Assembly: GCF_900176145.1 (NCBI RefSeq)
Contig: NZ_FWWY01000001.1
Coordinates: forward strand, 687,517-751,516
DNA length: 64,000 nucleotides
DNA from: Sulfobacillus thermosulfidooxidans DSM 9293
Lineage (GTDB): Bacteria; Bacillota; Sulfobacillia; Sulfobacillales; Sulfobacillaceae
Reading direction: 5' to 3'
Shown here: positions 17,593 to 25,317 of the stretch, one piece after another
Position numbering within the stretch: the first letter of the stretch is position 1
Layout of the letters: every line of letters begins with the position of its first letter
Made by a program: the position numbers and the translations under genes
Notes under the pieces: generated by a model
The model's database searches: none
Told to the model about the DNA's origin: nothing
The model's input: the letters and a program-made list of their open reading frames with translations, nothing else

Positions 17593-18284
17593 AGCTCTTT
17601 AAACCGATATCCCACTCCTCGAACGGTTTCAATAAAACGCGGCGATTGCAAATCCTCTTGCAATTTTTCCCGCAGATGGCGGATATGGACGTCGACCGTG
17701 CGGGCATCCCCAAAAAAATCTTGTCCCCAGACTTTGATGAGCAAATCATCCCGCGTGAATGCCCGCCCCGGGTTCTTCGCTAAAATTGATAATAATTCAA
17801 ATTCTGTAAACGTTAACGGCAAAGGCGTCCCGTCCAGCAAAACCTCCCGTTTGTCGAATTCGATTTTCAAGCCGGAATGTTCCACCACCTCGGGCTCTGT
17901 CGTCTCTTTGTCCGTGGGCCGTTTTACGCGTCTAAGAATCGCCTTGACCCGGGCCACCAATTCCCGCGGAGAAAAAGGTTTCGTCACATAGTCATCGGCT
18001 CCGAGTTCCAATCCTAATATCCGGTCGAGTTCGTCTTTCCGGGCTGTCAGCATGATAACGGGAATGTCGGTTTCGTGCCGAATCGAACGACACACATCAA
18101 GTCCTGATAGACCAGGCAACATGACGTCGAGAACAACCAGGTCTGGTTTATCCTGCAAAGCCCGTTTGAGCCCTTGTTGTCCATCATATTCTGTGAGCAC
18201 GTCAAAGCCTTCGCGTCTTAAATTATAGGCAACTAATTCGACAATGGCTTTTTCATCATCCACGACCAATACCCGTTGCGGCAT
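17589..18284 (-). CDS. phoP: PhoP-type response regulator (OmpR family)
   Basis: DNA-binding response regulator of the Pho response. Receiver domain: acidic pocket VVDDEKA, phosphoacceptor Asp53 in VVLDVMLPG, switch Thr in MLTARKD and the lysine in VTKPFSPREL. C-terminal winged helix about 130-231 with LTFTEFELL, the recognition helix region ARTVDVHIRHLREK and the ending ETVRGVGYRF. The ATG follows GAGGAGG. The start overlaps the end of the upstream P-loop/Asp23 gene by 29 bp. Confidence 0.96.
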   Translation of the reverse strand: MPQRVLVVDDEKAIVELVAYNLRREGFDVLTEYDGQQGLKRALQDKPDLVVLDVMLPGLSGLDVCRSIRHETDIPVIMLTARKDELDRILGLELGADDYVTKPFSPRELVARVKAILRRVKRPTDKETTEPEVVEHSGLKIEFDKREVLLDGTPLPLTFTEFELLSILAKNPGRAFTRDDLLIKVWGQDFFGDARTVDVHIRHLREKLQEDLQSPRFIETVRGVGYRFKEL

Positions 18285-19167
18285 GATATCCTCCTCTCTC
18301 GTTGGGGGAAGGTACGACTTCAGGCGAGGAGTCGCTCGTCATGGTCTCAGAGCGTGTCCTAACCACGAAATGCCTGGCTTCAATATCTAATGCCAGCACA
18401 TTTAATGCTGTCATCTCCTCGATCGCCTGGCGAATACGAGTTTGCACATCTTCCAATAGGGCAAACAACTGGCATTGACGACTCACGCCGAGTTCCACAG
18501 TAATACTCACTCCGGCAGGCGTACTTTGAACGACCACCCGGTAAACGTGAGACACATCAAGACTTTGGCGTGCCGCATGGACGACAATGGCTGTAATAAC
18601 GGTATCAGAAATATAAAATCGTCCCAGTCCTGAATAGGTCGGACGCACAATCGATTTTTCCACAAACACCGACCGACCCTTGCGCCGAAAAATAAACCGC
18701 AACGGATCGATTAAATACCCGGAAAAACTTTTCCGGACTTCCATCGTCGGGGCAGGAATCACATGCTTGCCTTGTTCCCGACGGATCTTTTGGGCTAAAG
18801 CTCGTTCCTCTGGTGATGCGATTGTTTCAATGGGAATCCACATCACCGAATCGGGATCCAAATGGAGAGCACGCACAATATGGTTCACCATATTCACCGA
18901 GGTACCGAGAATCAATAAAGATGACAGATTTAAACGAGCAATCGCTTGGCGAACCGAAGCCGCATGCTCGGGATCGGAAAAAATGGCACGTTTCACGGCT
19001 GCAACTCGGGTCGCTTCCCGTTTCGCAGAATATCCGGCAACAATGCGACCGTCGGCAATCAATAGCCCATCATCGATTATCGCTTCGGCATTTTTTTCAA
19101 TTGCCACCATCGAGGCCCGGTGGCTTTTGCCTGTACCGCTCGGACCAATTAAGGCGTAAATTTTCAT
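18256..19167 (-). CDS. P-loop NTPase fused to an Asp23 (Gls24/YloU)-like domain
   Basis: Unassigned protein of 303 residues that heads the phosphate operon. The N-terminus IYALIGPSGTGKS (residues 3-15) is a Walker A motif, followed by a helicase-free nucleotide-kinase-like region. Residues about 190-280 look like the Asp23/Gls24 family: GRFYISDTVITAIVVHAA, VSITVELGVSRQCQLFALLEDVQ shortened here, and IRQAIEEMTALNVLALDIE, i.e. the basic-fold repeats seen in YloU/AmaP-type envelope stress proteins. Its ATG at 19167 overlaps the stop of a 23-residue ORF as ATGA, and its 3' end overlaps phoP by 29 bp. No Asp23 member has a known role in phosphate sensing; an envelope-stress or nucleotide-dependent input is only a guess. 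Confidence 0.8.
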   Translation of the reverse strand: MKIYALIGPSGTGKSHRASMVAIEKNAEAIIDDGLLIADGRIVAGYSAKREATRVAAVKRAIFSDPEHAASVRQAIARLNLSSLLILGTSVNMVNHIVRALHLDPDSVMWIPIETIASPEERALAQKIRREQGKHVIPAPTMEVRKSFSGYLIDPLRFIFRRKGRSVFVEKSIVRPTYSGLGRFYISDTVITAIVVHAARQSLDVSHVYRVVVQSTPAGVSITVELGVSRQCQLFALLEDVQTRIRQAIEEMTALNVLALDIEARHFVVRTRSETMTSDSSPEVVPSPNERGGYHAATGIGRG

Positions 19168-19235
19168 TCCCTTGCGCGAGAACCCCCGGCAAGAAAGCCT
19201 AGGAGAGATAGCGCGACAGACCGAGCCTTCTCCAT
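19164..19235 (-). CDS. Small ORF (23 aa) leading the phosphate operon
   Basis: An ATG at 19235 is preceded by AAAAGGAGG at normal spacing and opens a 23-codon frame beginning MEKARSVALSLLGFLAGG. Its TGA overlaps the ATG of the P-loop/Asp23 gene as ATGA. The downstream gene has only a weak ribosome-binding site of its own (AAGGGA), so this ORF probably acts as a translational lead-in. It is amphipathic-hydrophobic in the middle. No homologue is known to me. Confidence 0.5.
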   Translation of the reverse strand: MEKARSVALSLLGFLAGGSRARE

Positions 19236-19448
19236 TCCCGCTCCTCCTTTTGTCGATGGTACTTGGGCCAACGAGCCCATCGCTGCCCATCTTTGATCAT
19301 GTGTTCGTGACCACGGTCATGATTTTTCCTTCTCCCTTATGAGCCTTGCGTCCTGAGCCCTGCTATCCTTCTGTCTGGGGCGAATATGGGCCACCAACTC
19401 CATCTTACCGGATAGAAGAGAAATCATCGAAACTTTCTCGTTCACCCT

Positions 19449-20576
19449 TCAGGAAGAGGGCGCTGAGGAAGCCATGGCTTCTTGTCCTGCTCGGACAACC
19501 AGCTCTTGAACGAGTCTTTGACGCCAAGGCATGAATCGCCAGTCAATGTGTTCGTGGCGCGCATGCGCTCCTTGCCCTACGGCGCCTAACCCGTCTAGAG
19601 TTGGCGTGATAGCCGCCGTAAAATTCCCATCTGAGGCCCCGCCCACATTAATTCCCGCCAATGGCTTTCCCCGTATGCTTTCCCAGATTTCAGCAGCTTG
19701 ACGAAACCACTGCTCGGCCACAGGTCCATGATCCATCGGTGGCCGGTTAAACCCTCCAACGTACCGGGTTGAGGTCCTCGTATCAAACTGGGGTGGCGCA
19801 TTCAAGGTCTTTTCGATCCGCTCTTGCTCTTTTTGCGTTTTGACCCGGATATCGATCTCAGCGACCGCCGATGCCGCCACAACATTGGTCGTCGTGCCCC
19901 CTTTGACCACCCCCACATTGATTGTTGTGCCGAGAACTCGATTTTCTAAACTCGCCAGCCACAATATTTGTTGAGCCAATTCCCGAATCGCACTCGCCCC
20001 CTGGTCCGGGTGAAGACCCGCATGGCTTTCAATGCCAGTAATCTCCATGCGGAAATTGCCAACACCGGATCGACCAATTTTTAAGGCACCCTCTTCGCCC
20101 CCGGGTTCTAAGACGAGTGTCACCGACGCCTTTCGAGCCTTCTCTTCAATCAGCTGTCGGCTAAGATCACTCCCAATTTCTTCATCTGGTGTAATCAACC
20201 AGCAAAAAGGAATATCGGCAGGCACATCATATAAAGCCCCCACACCAATCACTAAACCGCCTTTCATGTCCAAAACGCCAGGGCCAAAAATTCGGTCTCC
20301 TTGGTCCTGAAAGGGCATCGTGTCCAGGGTACCAAGCGGCCAGACGGTATCCGCGTGAGCGAGTAATAGGGCCCCTTGGCGTCCGGGAACGTTGCGGAAA
20401 ATCTCAAGAACTGGACCGCGCTCAGTAAAATGCCATTGGTATTGAAGAGAAAGAGGTGTTAAGGCGTCAAGGACTCGTTCCTGCACTTGACGGATCCCTT
20501 CAGCATATCGCGACGGCGATTCAATCTGCACCAAGTCCGCCAATAGCCTTTTCGCCTGGTTATCGTCCCAAGTCAA
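19449..20576 (-). CDS. M20-family metallopeptidase, probable N-succinyl/acyl-amino acid deacylase
   Basis: Zinc hydrolase of the carboxypeptidase G2/ArgE class, 375 residues. Metal and catalytic residues: LLLAHADTVW (His, Asp), GVLDMKGG (bridging Asp), ITPDEEIGS (catalytic Glu pair), VLEPGG and the C-terminal histidine in GAHARHEHID. The dimerisation insert has ESHAGLHPDQGASAI. I chose the TTG at 20576 because GGAGG is ten bases upstream; a GTG at 20597 is possible. It overlaps the racemase gene and is the last of four genes, where it would remove the succinyl group from the N-succinyl-L-amino acid. Confidence 0.88.
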   Translation of the reverse strand: MTWDDNQAKRLLADLVQIESPSRYAEGIRQVQERVLDALTPLSLQYQWHFTERGPVLEIFRNVPGRQGALLLAHADTVWPLGTLDTMPFQDQGDRIFGPGVLDMKGGLVIGVGALYDVPADIPFCWLITPDEEIGSDLSRQLIEEKARKASVTLVLEPGGEEGALKIGRSGVGNFRMEITGIESHAGLHPDQGASAIRELAQQILWLASLENRVLGTTINVGVVKGGTTTNVVAASAVAEIDIRVKTQKEQERIEKTLNAPPQFDTRTSTRYVGGFNRPPMDHGPVAEQWFRQAAEIWESIRGKPLAGINVGGASDGNFTAAITPTLDGLGAVGQGAHARHEHIDWRFMPWRQRLVQELVVRAGQEAMASSAPSS

Positions 20577-21753
20577 GTTCTGGAAACCTCCTTTCACGAT
20601 TAATCTTCAGGTGGGGATTAAGATGATCATCCTGTCCAAGAGGAATTTTCCATGTTTCTTCATACGTACAGACTTCTTGCATGCGCTTGGGATCCAAATC
20701 CACGCCAATACCAGGTCCTGTCGGGACCGTTAAGGTTCCATCGGCATTTAATGCAAAAGGTTCCGTAATAATATCTTGCCAGAAATAGCGGTCACTGGCC
20801 GAGGTATCGCCTGGCAAGGTAAATCCCGCTAAAGTCGTTAAATGAAGATTATGAGCCCGTCCAATTCCTGTTTCCAACATGCCTCCGCACCACAATGGGA
20901 TATGATGTTGCCGCGCAAATGCTTCAATGGCTAGTGACGGGGCATAACCGCCTACACGTCCCACTTTTAAATTGATGATGCCGAGCGCTCCTAACTCCCA
21001 TGCTTTTCTGGCATCATCAACAGAATGGATGGACTCATCGAGACAAATTGGGGTTGACAGCGTTTTGGCTAAGGTCGCGTGATCAACGATATCATCATAG
21101 GCGAGTGGTTGTTCGATCATCATCAAATGCAGGTCCTCAAATTCTTTGAAATGATCTCGATCAGCGAGACGATATGCCGAATTCGCATCGGCCATTATCG
21201 GAACCTCGTCGCCAAGACGTGCGCGCAACAGACGAAGTGGGATTACGTCCCATCCCGGTCGAATTTTGATTTTCAGTCGCCGGTAGCCTTGCTTCCAATA
21301 GCTTTCTGCAACCGCGCCGAGTTGTTCGGGACTGTCTTGAATGCCAATCGATACCCCAACAGGGATCCGGTCTACGTCACGACCTCCTAACAAGCGATAC
21401 AAAGGCTGGCGCTCAGATTTGGCAAACCAATCCCATATCGCCATTTCCACAGCCGCTTTGGCCATGCGATTACCGCGGATACTTTGTAAGCGGAGGGAAA
21501 TCTCCTGCGGATCTGTGATGTTCCCTTGTAAGTGGGGAATAATGGCATCGCGGATAGCGTAATAGACGGAGGCATGCGTTTCCTCACTATATAACGGCAA
21601 ATCTGAGGCTACCGATTCCGCATAACCTTCAATACCCTCTCCTCGCACTGTAATAATCCACGCACGCTTGGTGTCTTCTCGCCCAAATGAGGTGGCAAAG
21701 GGTGTTTTCAATGGCAGTGATATGAATTGTAATTGAATTTCTTCTAAACGCAT
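20560..21753 (-). CDS. menC: N-acyl(succinyl) amino acid racemase / o-succinylbenzoate synthase family
   Basis: Enolase-superfamily enzyme of the MenC/NAAAR type, 397 residues. Barrel signatures: LKIKIRPGWD (KxK acid/base lysine), MADANSAY, MIEQPLAYDD and CLDESIHS (three magnesium ligands), and INLKVGRVGG (opposite-face lysine). Members make o-succinylbenzoate for menaquinone, racemise N-succinyl amino acids, or do both. No other men genes are here, while a GNAT succinyltransferase-like gene and an M20 deacylase flank it, so N-succinylamino acid racemase is the better reading in this context. The ATG overlaps the GNAT gene by 10 bp, with AAGGGG upstream. Confidence 0.9.
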   Translation of the reverse strand: MRLEEIQLQFISLPLKTPFATSFGREDTKRAWIITVRGEGIEGYAESVASDLPLYSEETHASVYYAIRDAIIPHLQGNITDPQEISLRLQSIRGNRMAKAAVEMAIWDWFAKSERQPLYRLLGGRDVDRIPVGVSIGIQDSPEQLGAVAESYWKQGYRRLKIKIRPGWDVIPLRLLRARLGDEVPIMADANSAYRLADRDHFKEFEDLHLMMIEQPLAYDDIVDHATLAKTLSTPICLDESIHSVDDARKAWELGALGIINLKVGRVGGYAPSLAIEAFARQHHIPLWCGGMLETGIGRAHNLHLTTLAGFTLPGDTSASDRYFWQDIITEPFALNADGTLTVPTGPGIGVDLDPKRMQEVCTYEETWKIPLGQDDHLNPHLKINRERRFPELDLGR

Positions 21754-22484
21754 ACATTTATCCCCTTAACGTTTCTCGCGGCACCAGCGCGCTTTGGTTT
21801 ATCACCGCATACATAACACAATCGTCCTTGTGGTGATCGTGCCAGCCCCAGCACCGAATAGCCATCGTGTGAAAACTGGGTCACATAATATTCCGCCCAC
21901 CACATGGCCTTATCCGGGTCTTGTTGTCGTAATACCGCAATATTTTCCGGAATGGGTATAAGTTTCTTGGCCGTCTTTTTCGACATCGCTGGCCAATTCG
22001 GATGAAGTCCCACAAAAAAGCGATGGGTAGGCCAGGCCCCATTAATGGCGTCATTTAACACACCATAATAATTGGGATAAAATTCTAAAACGTGAGCTTT
22101 TAATATACCGAGATTTAACTGGGCGTTACGCCGTTGGAGGGGATCAAAGGTCCATCCCACAAATTCATAACCGTGGTCAAGGGCCCAATTAAGCTGATAC
22201 GATTTCATTTGCCGACCAATCCCTTGACTACGGTAGGCTGGTAACACGGCCATCATATGGGAATGCAAATACCATAATCCATGATACTGGCCAGGAAAGG
22301 CGACAGACATGGCAATCATGTTATGCCCTTCATCATATGCACCTAAAATAAGTCCTCCATGATCCGCAAATACCCTTAACAAGCTCACGGGAGTACTATG
22401 TGCATGGTGCCACACGCTTTCTTCTATATGCTGAACTTGTTGCAATTCGTCATGCGTCTGTAACGGCCGAATCGTCACGGGCAT
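21744..22484 (-). CDS. GNAT-family acyltransferase, probable D-amino acid N-succinyltransferase
   Basis: 246-residue acyltransferase of the COG3375-type GNAT group. The acyl-CoA-binding segment is VLPAYRSQGIGRQMK, followed by WTFDPLQRRNAQLNLG, a strongly conserved stretch of this subgroup. In Geobacillus a member of this subgroup is reported to succinylate D-amino acids ahead of the MenC-type racemase. An unusual C-terminal tail contains CYVCGDKPKRAGAARNVKG, with one CxxC pair. The gene is 15 bases after the Nudix gene and overlaps the racemase. Confidence 0.85.
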   Translation of the reverse strand: MPVTIRPLQTHDELQQVQHIEESVWHHAHSTPVSLLRVFADHGGLILGAYDEGHNMIAMSVAFPGQYHGLWYLHSHMMAVLPAYRSQGIGRQMKSYQLNWALDHGYEFVGWTFDPLQRRNAQLNLGILKAHVLEFYPNYYGVLNDAINGAWPTHRFFVGLHPNWPAMSKKTAKKLIPIPENIAVLRQQDPDKAMWWAEYYVTQFSHDGYSVLGLARSPQGRLCYVCGDKPKRAGAARNVKGINVCV

Positions 22485-22499
22485 AATCCAGACCTCAAT

Positions 22500-22979
22500 T
22501 CACGCCAATGGTAGTAGTTGTTGAAGAATGCGAGCCGTAGCTCCCCAAATTGTGCCGAAATCACTCCGGTACGCTATGCCGTAAGGACCCTTATAGCTTC
22601 CCTCGCGGAGATCTCGCCAAGAAATCCAAGCCGCTTCACTCACCTCTTGGGGATTAGGGGTCAACACAACCTTTTGAGAGATGGCAATAAGCCATGGCCA
22701 TATCCAATATTTCGACGCCTTCACGACGACTGGGGCTAAACATCCCAAACATTGAGAGGGTGTCAATAAGATTCCGACTTCCTCTTCCGTTTCTCGCCGT
22801 GCCGTCTCCCATAAACTTTCATCCCCGGCCTCCCTCTTCCCGCCGGGAAAACCAATCTCCAAAGGATGCTCCCGCATCCAAGAAGGCCGCTTAATAAAGA
22901 GCACCCACCAATCATCATGATCATAGGCAACAAGTACACTGACCGAAGCGACCTTAAATCCTGGCGGTGGATCCCACAC
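22500..22979 (-). CDS. Nudix hydrolase (CoA pyrophosphatase-like)
   Basis: 159-residue Nudix protein. The Nudix box is complete: G-x5-E-x7-R-E-x2-E-E-x-G within GFPGGKREAGDESLWETARR and the following ETEEEVG. The region upstream, VLFIKRPSWMREHPLEI, resembles the CoA-diphosphatase subgroup (NudL/YeaB). It begins with GTG after GAGGAGC and leads the four-gene operon. A CoA-ester pyrophosphatase would fit next to a succinyl-CoA-using enzyme, but the substrate is not proven by sequence. Confidence 0.88.
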   Translation of the reverse strand: MWDPPPGFKVASVSVLVAYDHDDWWVLFIKRPSWMREHPLEIGFPGGKREAGDESLWETARRETEEEVGILLTPSQCLGCLAPVVVKASKYWIWPWLIAISQKVVLTPNPQEVSEAAWISWRDLREGSYKGPYGIAYRSDFGTIWGATARILQQLLPLA

Positions 22980-23301: not shown

Positions 23302-25317
23302 ATGAGAACCATAGCAGGCGAGGATTTATTTCGTTTTAAGTTAGGCGGTGATATCCAGATTTGTCCCGGGAAGAAACTTGCCGTCTATGTAGAAAATCAG
23401 GCCGATCGCAAGACAAACAGTTATCATACCCGCATCATAAAAATCTGGCCGGGAGAAAAACCCGAACCCTTTACACACGGCCCGCATGATCAATCGCCCC
23501 AATTTTCCCCTGATGGGAAGTGGCTTGCCTTCATTTCCAAGCGCAGTGGACAAAAACAAATTTGGGTCATGTCAACCGCAGGCGGGGAAGCCCAACAAGT
23601 TTCCCATATTGATGGCGGCATTGAGTCGTTTATTTGGGCGCCCGATTCCCGCACCTTTTATGCAACGGCGCTATTAACAGATGCCGGTATTGTTGACGAG
23701 AACGCTACGGATAATGAGGACGACTATGTAAAATTCAATAAAGATGTTAAAGTCATCACAGAATTATCACATAAAATGGATGGGATTGGATTCTACGGGC
23801 CAAGACGTCCCCATATTATCCGCTTAACCCGCGATGGGGGGGAACCTGTGCAGTTGACCTTTGGCCCCTACCGCCATAGCCAACTGGCTATTTCCCCAGA
23901 TGGCCGCCAACTATTTTTTAGCTCGCGTTATGGCGAAGACTACGACCGCGAATCCTTTGAACATCACATCTATGTTCTTGATGTATCGGACACACAATCG
24001 TCTAAACCTGGGCAACCCCAGCGCATCTCGCCGCCAGGTCTTAGTGCCAGTTCTCCCGCCATGCATCCTGATAGCGAGCATCTTTTCTTTATCGGGACAC
24101 GGACTGAGGATTTGGGATATGATAATCCATCTTTGTATGTCATTCCCTTGTCTCATCCCGATCAAATCCGCATGATTGCTCCATGGTGGGACCGACCCTT
24201 TGCTGACGAATCCTTATCCGATATGTTAGGACCCGCTAGCAATCCCTTGCGCTTTGATGCCGATGGCTCCCATATTTTCTCGTTAACCAGCTATAACGGC
24301 ACCGTGCAATTGGCCCGCATTGACTGGCAACATGACCAAGTCGAATTGCTTACCAAAGGCGATCATGTCTATTACAGTTACGATATTTCCTCCGATGCAC
24401 AATTGGCGATTCTGGCGAAAAGTAATCCCACCAACCCTTCACAAATTGAATGGTTGGAATCATCCGCGTCTTCTTATGACACCCAATTATTAACTAATCC
24501 CAATCAAGAGCTGTTAGCATCTTTAAAGCTTTCAACCCCAGTACGATTCCATTATCATGCCGAAAACGGCCCGGAGATCGATGGATGGGTTCTGCCCCCT
24601 GTTGACCGTGAAGAGGGGAAGAAATATCCTGCAGTCCTTGAAATTCATGGTGGACCCATGATGGTGTATGCCGACAGCTTTTTCCTCGAATTTCAGTGGT
24701 TGGCTGCTCACGGTTATGGGGTCATTTACACGAATCCCCGTGGTTCCCAAGGTTATGGGCGGGAATTTTGCTTGGCTATCCAACACGAATGGGGAAATCT
24801 TGACTATCAGGACATCATGGCTGGTCTAGAAACCGCACTAGCCAAAAACCCCTGGATCGATAAGGACCGTCTTGCTGTCGCTGGGGGATCTTATGGGGGC
24901 TACATGACCAACTGGATTATTGGTCATAGCCAAAGGTTTAAGGCGGCTATCACCATGCGTTCTGTTGTCGACTGGAAAGCCATGGTCGGCACCGGAGATG
25001 GAGGATGGCACTGGATGCGCCGTGCTCATGATCAAAAGCCATGGCAATCGGATGACGACTGGTACCGTCAACAAAGCCCGATTACTTATGTCGAGAATAT
25101 CACCACGCCTTTGCTCATTGAGCATCAAGAAGGCGACTTGCGTTGCCCAATAGAACAAGGGGAAATCCTGTATACTGCGGTCAAGTATCTCAATAAGGCT
25201 CCCGTGAAATTCATCCGCTATCCCGAGGAATTTCATGGCATGAGCCGTAATGGCAAACCCTGGCATCGCATCTTTCGCCTTAACAGTTTCACCGACTGGT
25301 TAGCCCAATATGTCTAA
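23302..25317 (+). CDS. S9 family serine peptidase (acylaminoacyl-peptidase/DPP type)
   Basis: Prolyl-oligopeptidase-family enzyme of 671 residues that trims short peptides. The first ~400 residues form a beta-propeller with WD40-like (TolB-type) repeats such as SPDGKWLAF and SPDGRQLFF. The C-terminal alpha/beta-hydrolase has the oxyanion loop HGGP, nucleophile Ser530 in GGSYGGYM, Asp612 in EGDLRCP and His645 in EFHGMSR. No signal peptide, so cytoplasmic. The ATG follows GGGAGG. It is monocistronic, between the structured leader and a hairpin. With tricorn and pyroglutamyl peptidase nearby it suggests use or recycling of peptides. Confidence 0.94.
   Translation: MRTIAGEDLFRFKLGGDIQICPGKKLAVYVENQADRKTNSYHTRIIKIWPGEKPEPFTHGPHDQSPQFSPDGKWLAFISKRSGQKQIWVMSTAGGEAQQVSHIDGGIESFIWAPDSRTFYATALLTDAGIVDENATDNEDDYVKFNKDVKVITELSHKMDGIGFYGPRRPHIIRLTRDGGEPVQLTFGPYRHSQLAISPDGRQLFFSSRYGEDYDRESFEHHIYVLDVSDTQSSKPGQPQRISPPGLSASSPAMHPDSEHLFFIGTRTEDLGYDNPSLYVIPLSHPDQIRMIAPWWDRPFADESLSDMLGPASNPLRFDADGSHIFSLTSYNGTVQLARIDWQHDQVELLTKGDHVYYSYDISSDAQLAILAKSNPTNPSQIEWLESSASSYDTQLLTNPNQELLASLKLSTPVRFHYHAENGPEIDGWVLPPVDREEGKKYPAVLEIHGGPMMVYADSFFLEFQWLAAHGYGVIYTNPRGSQGYGREFCLAIQHEWGNLDYQDIMAGLETALAKNPWIDKDRLAVAGGSYGGYMTNWIIGHSQRFKAAITMRSVVDWKAMVGTGDGGWHWMRRAHDQKPWQSDDDWYRQQSPITYVENITTPLLIEHQEGDLRCPIEQGEILYTAVKYLNKAPVKFIRYPEEFHGMSRNGKPWHRIFRLNSFTDWLAQYV

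Follow-up and report, generated by a model that had tools for sequence, protein, structure and literature searches.

The closest described counterpart of the locus treated here is the D- to L-amino acid route of Geobacillus kaustophilus, in which, as reportedly described by Sakai et al. in 2006, a GNAT-family acyltransferase, an N-succinylamino acid racemase/o-succinylbenzoate synthase (NSAR/OSBS) of the enolase superfamily and an M20-type deacylase are encoded together. The Geobacillus NSAR/OSBS enzyme serves both roles in vivo, and its partner deacylase is one that we take to belong to the amidohydrolase branch. The locus in question occupies positions 19449-22979 of a 64,000-nucleotide stretch of contig NZ_FWWY01000001.1 of Sulfobacillus thermosulfidooxidans DSM 9293 (hereafter the window). 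Like the Geobacillus set, it combines a GNAT, an NSAR/OSBS-type enolase and an M20-type deacylase, but its deacylase is carboxypeptidase G2 (CPG2)-like and a Nudix gene leads its operon. We consider it likely that the GNAT, enolase and M20 proteins of the window form a D- to L-amino acid route via N-succinyl derivatives, with the enolase doubling as the OSBS (MenC) of menaquinone synthesis. Such a pathway is of a type already known, set apart here by its deacylase.

Several enzymes and loci of this type are on record. A passage of PMC8762209 credits Sakai et al. 2006 with a GNAT-related enzyme that makes N-acetyl- and N-succinyl-D-Phe, Tyr or Trp, and an excerpt of PMC7431475 describes use of the G. 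kaustophilus NSAR/L-succinylase pair in whole cells. According to the relevant portion of PMC4215206, the Amycolatopsis enzyme was first named a racemase and later recognized as an OSBS, and related enzymes catalyze both reactions. Plasmids of Priestia megaterium and Stenotrophomonas rhizophila, together with contigs of Cytobacillus and Bacillus, carry homologous adjoining GNAT and enolase genes with an M20-superfamily deacylase close by, though in the order deacylase-GNAT-enolase, unlike the window; a Cytobacillus plasmid shows M20-menC with no GNAT annotated within the stretch shown. Homologous menC and GNAT genes that overlap as in the window are found on plasmids of Deinococcus sp. QL22, D. 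ficus and D. psychrotolerans, and in D. radiodurans MP1 the two genes are separated by two short solute-binding-protein frames. Unlike the window, these Deinococcus loci hold ABC transporter genes and have no M20 or Nudix annotated in the stretches shown. On the Deinococcus plasmids (loci L172, L173, L174) the genes after menC/GNAT encode a pair of ABC permeases, one solute-binding protein and a protein with a serine hydrolase domain, and the gene sets look as if they were suited to peptide uptake and cleavage.

In the window, four co-directional open reading frames on the minus strand fill 19449-22979 exactly, in the order Nudix, GNAT, NSAR/OSBS-type enolase, M20:

22500-22979, minus strand: Nudix hydrolase, CoA-diphosphatase-like, 159 aa with a GTG start; a conserved neighbor whose role in the route is unproven.
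21744-22484, minus strand: N-acyltransferase of the GNAT family, 246 aa; proposed to act as a succinyl-CoA:D-amino acid N-succinyltransferase.
20560-21753, minus strand: enzyme of the enolase superfamily, NSAR/OSBS type, 397 aa; proposed to be a racemase and also the only MenC of the genome.
19449-20597, minus strand: metallohydrolase of the M20 superfamily, carboxypeptidase-G2-like branch, 382 aa when read from the GTG; proposed N-succinyl-L-amino acid desuccinylase.

The first-pass annotation, made from the sequence of the window, had placed these four adjacent gene families in one operon, and this is borne out by the coordinates, by the Pfam and NCBIfam matches given below and by conservation in the genus, where six of the eight genomes examined (own included) have all four genes in order. 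G006, of the same genus, lacks only the GNAT; there the arrangement at L082 (5310-8331) is Nudix-enolase-M20, and a search of the gap for a GNAT remnant returned nothing below E 1.3. In G007, also of this genus, a contig end cuts the set after Nudix-GNAT-enolase. The genes had also been called overlapping, which holds for GNAT and enolase (10 bases) and for enolase and M20 (38 bases with the M20 start at GTG 20597) and fails for Nudix and GNAT, which are 15 bases apart. An alternative M20 start at TTG 20576, giving 375 aa and a 17-base overlap with the enolase, is better placed because AAAGGAGG lies ten bases upstream of it.

In the proposed route, the GNAT would acylate a D-amino acid with succinyl-CoA, and the NSAR/OSBS enzyme would racemize the N-succinyl amino acid by proton transfer between K163 and K263, with the metal held by D189, E214 and D239. 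The M20 protein would then desuccinylate the L form, which would draw the reaction toward the L-amino acid, and the same NSAR/OSBS enzyme would make o-succinylbenzoate for menaquinone. The acyl donor, the substrates, the acyl specificity of the M20, the use of both reactions in vivo and any part played by the Nudix protein are predictions here.

The enolase passes NCBIfam model TIGR01928 (menC_lowGC_arch) with 315.4 bits against a cut-off of 200.65, matches Pfam MR_MLE_C with 165 bits, and has as its best solved relatives the N-acylamino acid racemases 2ggj and 1r0m (E 2e-103); the solved racemase relatives presumably come from Deinococcus, Thermus and Amycolatopsis. In alignment it has all six NSAR/OSBS positions, K163, D189, E214, D239, K263 and R266, of which we take K163/K263 to be the catalytic Lys pair, D189/E214/D239 the metal ligands and R266 a further NSAR/OSBS position. 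The active-site alignment comprised 40 sequences, 35 from the window and its relatives and five from named plasmids, with loci L045 and L058 left out. The MenC of D. radiodurans MP1 was considered as the solved racemase 1r0m itself and rejected, as the match (525 bits) is that of a close relative and the proteins are not identical. The link from GNAT-paired enolases to racemases of measured activity goes by homology.

The first-pass annotation had proposed reassigning the enolase gene away from menC and suggested a check for menaquinone genes elsewhere in the genome. That check contradicts the removal of the name. The host genome (3.86 Mb, two contigs, 99.92% complete) carries menF, menD, menH, menB, menE and menA clustered on contig 1 at about 88,867-96,124, each over a curated cut-off (TIGR00543, TIGR00173, TIGR03695, TIGR01929 plus NF005637, TIGR01923, TIGR00751), and menC is not among them. 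The MqnA/MqnD family of the futalosine pathway gave no match in this genome, and the same search was positive in 4 of 14 control genomes. The enolase C-terminal family PF13378 matched three proteins, one of them the window enolase. Neither of the others was accepted as a second menC, the one over cut-off, on contig 2, being an L-rhamnonate dehydratase (648 bits, cut-off 393) and the third falling below cut-off; the profile search thus detected no OSBS-type gene in this genome besides the window enolase. As the men cluster lacks menC, MqnA/MqnD gave no match and no other OSBS-type enolase was found, menC is very likely a correct but incomplete name, and the window enolase is most likely a working MenC too. 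The dehydratase lies within 47000-65000 of the 249 kb contig 2 (L011) in an apparent sugar-acid catabolic cluster, with flanking frames that look transposase-like by eye.

In 41 genomes (own included), the OSBS model was over cut-off in 33 and menD in 30; an OSBS gene over cut-off was present in 30/30 menD genomes versus 3/11 of the others, these three being G007 (61% complete), G033 and G039. Exactly one OSBS gene occurs in 27 of the 30 menD genomes, and it adjoins a GNAT in 18 of these 27 (own included) and does not in nine (G006, G010, G013, G019, G021, G026, G029, G031 and G032). At L074-L077 (G010, G019, G013, G021) the OSBS gene stands 3.6-3.7 kb after menD on the same contig with no adjoining GNAT, and G021 has a GNAT homologue on a different contig. 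Extra OSBS-type paralogues were also seen: one in G002 (L079, 6314-8622) adjoins another CPG2-like M20 with no GNAT, and G012 (L080) has two further paralogues on one contig.

Comparison across genomes gives good support to the D-to-L reading, as GNAT homologues stand beside the enolase in several bacterial and archaeal phyla. The window GNAT itself matches Pfam Acetyltransf_1 (32 bits, E 1.6e-7) and gave no match to an NCBIfam model at E 0.001 or to a PDB sequence at E 0.1; its AlphaFold model has a mean pLDDT of 88.9 and is confident except for the last 14 residues, and among the 50 Foldseek matches listed most are GNAT acetyltransferases. Neighbors around OSBS and GNAT loci were counted by tblastn with the window's own proteins, which would miss distant stand-ins. 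By this count the 41 genomes (own included) hold 37 OSBS loci, at 24 of which a GNAT homologue adjoins the OSBS-type gene. The wider GNAT family was sought with one peptide pattern in a genome collection, where 199 stretches matched, 196 were confirmed and the best 80 were kept; 48 of these best 80 loci, from named genomes, have an OSBS-type gene on the same strand no more than 1.5 kb away. The pairs come from Bacillota, Acidobacteriota, Pseudomonadota, Deinococcota, Planctomycetota, Thermoplasmatota and Bathyarchaeota. By tblastn the window GNAT matches GNATs that neighbor genes annotated as menC in Sulfitobacter, Deinococcus, Priestia and Stenotrophomonas, the Sulfitobacter plasmid having the arrangement amino-acid ABC transporter-menC-GNAT. 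On a tree built from 97 GNATs, 7 changes of the paired label are needed versus 28.2 in shuffles (0/500 as low), a contrast that near relatives inflate; the tree left out matches shorter than about 140 residues or with an internal stop, plus L074-L085 and L087-L098.

The pair also occurs apart from the Men pathway. Among 21 pair-bearing genomes hand-picked across phyla (genome completeness not told), menD was not found at E <= 1e-40 in 16, and the pair therefore does not need the Men pathway; the relatives G033 and G039 likewise have the pair without menD. The five with menD are all Bacillaceae, and at E <= 1e-50 four of them have one OSBS gene and one has two. The published D-to-L route of GNAT, NSAR and deacylase, to which the locus had been likened at the outset, thus gains from a GNAT-enolase pair that recurs across phyla and often without menD. 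Whole Chloroflexota and Bryobacterales clades of the GNAT family (among L099-L165) have no nearby OSBS-type gene. Near the loci of several relatives (L054, L055, L056, L057, L059, L066, L068, L070, L081, L083 and L085) there is a gene for a D-2-hydroxyacid dehydrogenase (144 bits to its best model, GhrA, which is below cut-off); in several cases it comes immediately downstream of the enolase at loci that lack the M20.

The M20 protein matches Pfam Peptidase_M20 and M20_dimer with about 70 bits each, so the operon does contain an M20-superfamily deacylase. Its subfamily differs from that of the Bacillaceae sets. With PRK06133, a glutamate carboxypeptidase subfamily whose cut-off is 349 bits, it reaches 221 bits; with the amidohydrolase model TIGR01891 (cut-off 153.75) it reaches 47 bits, versus 263, 269 and 260 bits to TIGR01891 for the Priestia, Stenotrophomonas and Cytobacillus plasmid deacylases. 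The best solved relative of the window protein is carboxypeptidase G2 (E 2e-33), an enzyme that removes glutamate from folates. The TIGR01891 branch is a feature of the Bacillaceae and Stenotrophomonas sets and is not known as a requirement of the route. Of the 48 named pairs, seven have a CPG2-like gene and five an amidohydrolase, and for the rest the stretch fetched shows neither at the score applied; it looks as though two different M20 branches may be used for one step. CPG2-like M20 genes also stand beside two OSBS genes without a GNAT, in G006 and at the second OSBS gene of G002. Because the window M20 lies in the CPG2-like and not the amidohydrolase branch, its desuccinylase activity is something that we infer. 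One may speculate that this lineage recruited a CPG2-branch M20 independently of the Bacillaceae amidohydrolase and that the pocket of this enzyme may adapt the route to acidic D-amino acids, for instance D-glutamate freed from the cell wall, so that the bifunctional enzyme would tie salvage to quinone supply, but we hold this to be doubtful.

The Nudix protein matches Pfam NUDIX (54.4 bits) and NUDT7 (E 2e-9), and reaches 57.7 bits with the CoA pyrophosphatase model PRK10707, below its cut-off of 134. Its gene adjoins the enolase in 21 of the 37 OSBS loci (own included), two of them without a GNAT (G006 and G032), and the wider locus set has ten loci with Nudix homologues, each of them titled Sulfobacillus or Bacillota. 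On the Cytobacillus plasmid, a NUDIX hydrolase annotated 1.3 kb past menC gave no match to the window Nudix at E 1e-6. It is well established that recycling of the CoA released by a GNAT needs no diphosphatase, and thus we see no need for the Nudix in the route. The Nudix is a largely lineage-specific neighbor, retained next to the enolase at two loci that lack a GNAT, and its role in the route is therefore unproven. The suggestion of the first-pass annotation that it serves CoA turnover finds no support, given the score below the CoA-pyrophosphatase cut-off, matched homologues beside the pair in this lineage only and retention at the GNAT-less loci. The same annotation called the operon complete, which needs qualifying on two counts: for the M20, which is of another branch, and for the Nudix.

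Several observations weigh against the D-to-L reading with a dual-function enolase. The fold match of the GNAT is generic, with TM 0.43-0.53 by query and 10-19% identity among the matches listed, and is silent on the acyl donor. For 32 of the best 80 named GNAT loci, some on short contigs, there is no OSBS-type gene inside 1.5 kb, and this GNAT family therefore has other settings too. In the Priestia and Stenotrophomonas operons that were tested, the deacylases accompanying the pair are of another branch than the window M20; a CPG2-like M20 occurs at 14 of the 24 GNAT-paired loci (own included), with a contig end cutting two of the other ten, and 19 of the 41 genomes show no match to it at E <= 1e-20, and the three-enzyme set is therefore not fixed. 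G006 keeps the enolase and M20 with no GNAT match in the genome, and in G039, where the pair occurs without menD, a partial match to MqnA/D passes the cut-off. R266 is present in all 40 aligned sequences, including four near-menD enzymes without an adjoining GNAT. As the key residues are shared with these four, residues alone cannot separate NSAR from OSBS, and R266, being universal in the alignment, was rejected as a marker of racemase use.

Among other explanations, the one that survives best is that the route uses another acyl group (acetyl or similar), or that it scavenges N-acyl amino acids instead of carrying out succinyl D-to-L conversion. The GNAT of the described route takes acetyl-CoA as well as succinyl-CoA according to a passage of PMC8762209, and a CPG2-like M20 is not a characterized desuccinylase. 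A portion of PMC8142540 that tabulates kinetics for GkNSAR/OSBS and other NSAR enzymes points the other way, giving kcat/Km values of 42,000 for AmyNSAR on N-succinyl-S-phenylglycine versus 1,111 for the Amycolatopsis N-acylamino acid racemase on N-acetyl-S-methionine, a contrast that is indicative only, because the side chains differ. We judge this alternative unlikely.

It is quite improbable that the enzyme is MenC (OSBS) only, surrounded by unrelated metabolic genes. Such an enzyme would pass the menC equivalog model, as this one does at 315 bits, and would be the sole MenC candidate found; the OSBS genes near menD without an adjoining GNAT in G010, G013, G019 and G021 also fit. Chance neighbors would not account well for a pairing with one GNAT family that recurs across phyla, including genomes with no menD match, nor for the Sulfitobacter and three Deinococcus plasmids that hold the pair in ABC-transporter gene sets. 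Weakest of all, and very improbable, is a racemase-only enolase with the menaquinone step left to an undetected gene: the GNAT-enolase pair does occur where menD is unmatched (16/21 genomes, G033 and G039), but here the rest of the Men pathway is present with no other OSBS-type enolase found, all 30 menD genomes carry an OSBS gene, and G006 keeps the enolase without a GNAT. The dual-function enzyme within a D-to-L route, with the men cluster without menC as the basis for its o-succinylbenzoate activity, thus remains the reading that we prefer.

Outside the operon, the gene downstream (18256-19290, minus strand) encodes a protein with a P-loop-like stretch, GPSGTGKS, noted by eye and a weak Asp23-like match, and the divergent gene upstream (23302-25317, plus strand) encodes an S9 prolyl oligopeptidase; homologues of both accompany the operon across the genus and part of the family. 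A promoter and terminator scan gave 4 and 3 sites versus 6.4 and 5.5 expected, with none upstream of the operon on its strand.

Taken together, the locus suggests that naming the enolase gene menC or racemase alone probably misses half of its work. It also belongs to a natural series for the study of one active site with two jobs, which includes a GNAT-enolase pair without menD, an OSBS gene near menD without a GNAT, one gene that apparently does both, and a case in which the GNAT was lost. Finally, the CPG2-like M20 provides a second kind of candidate deacylase for obtaining L-amino acids from N-succinyl mixtures.

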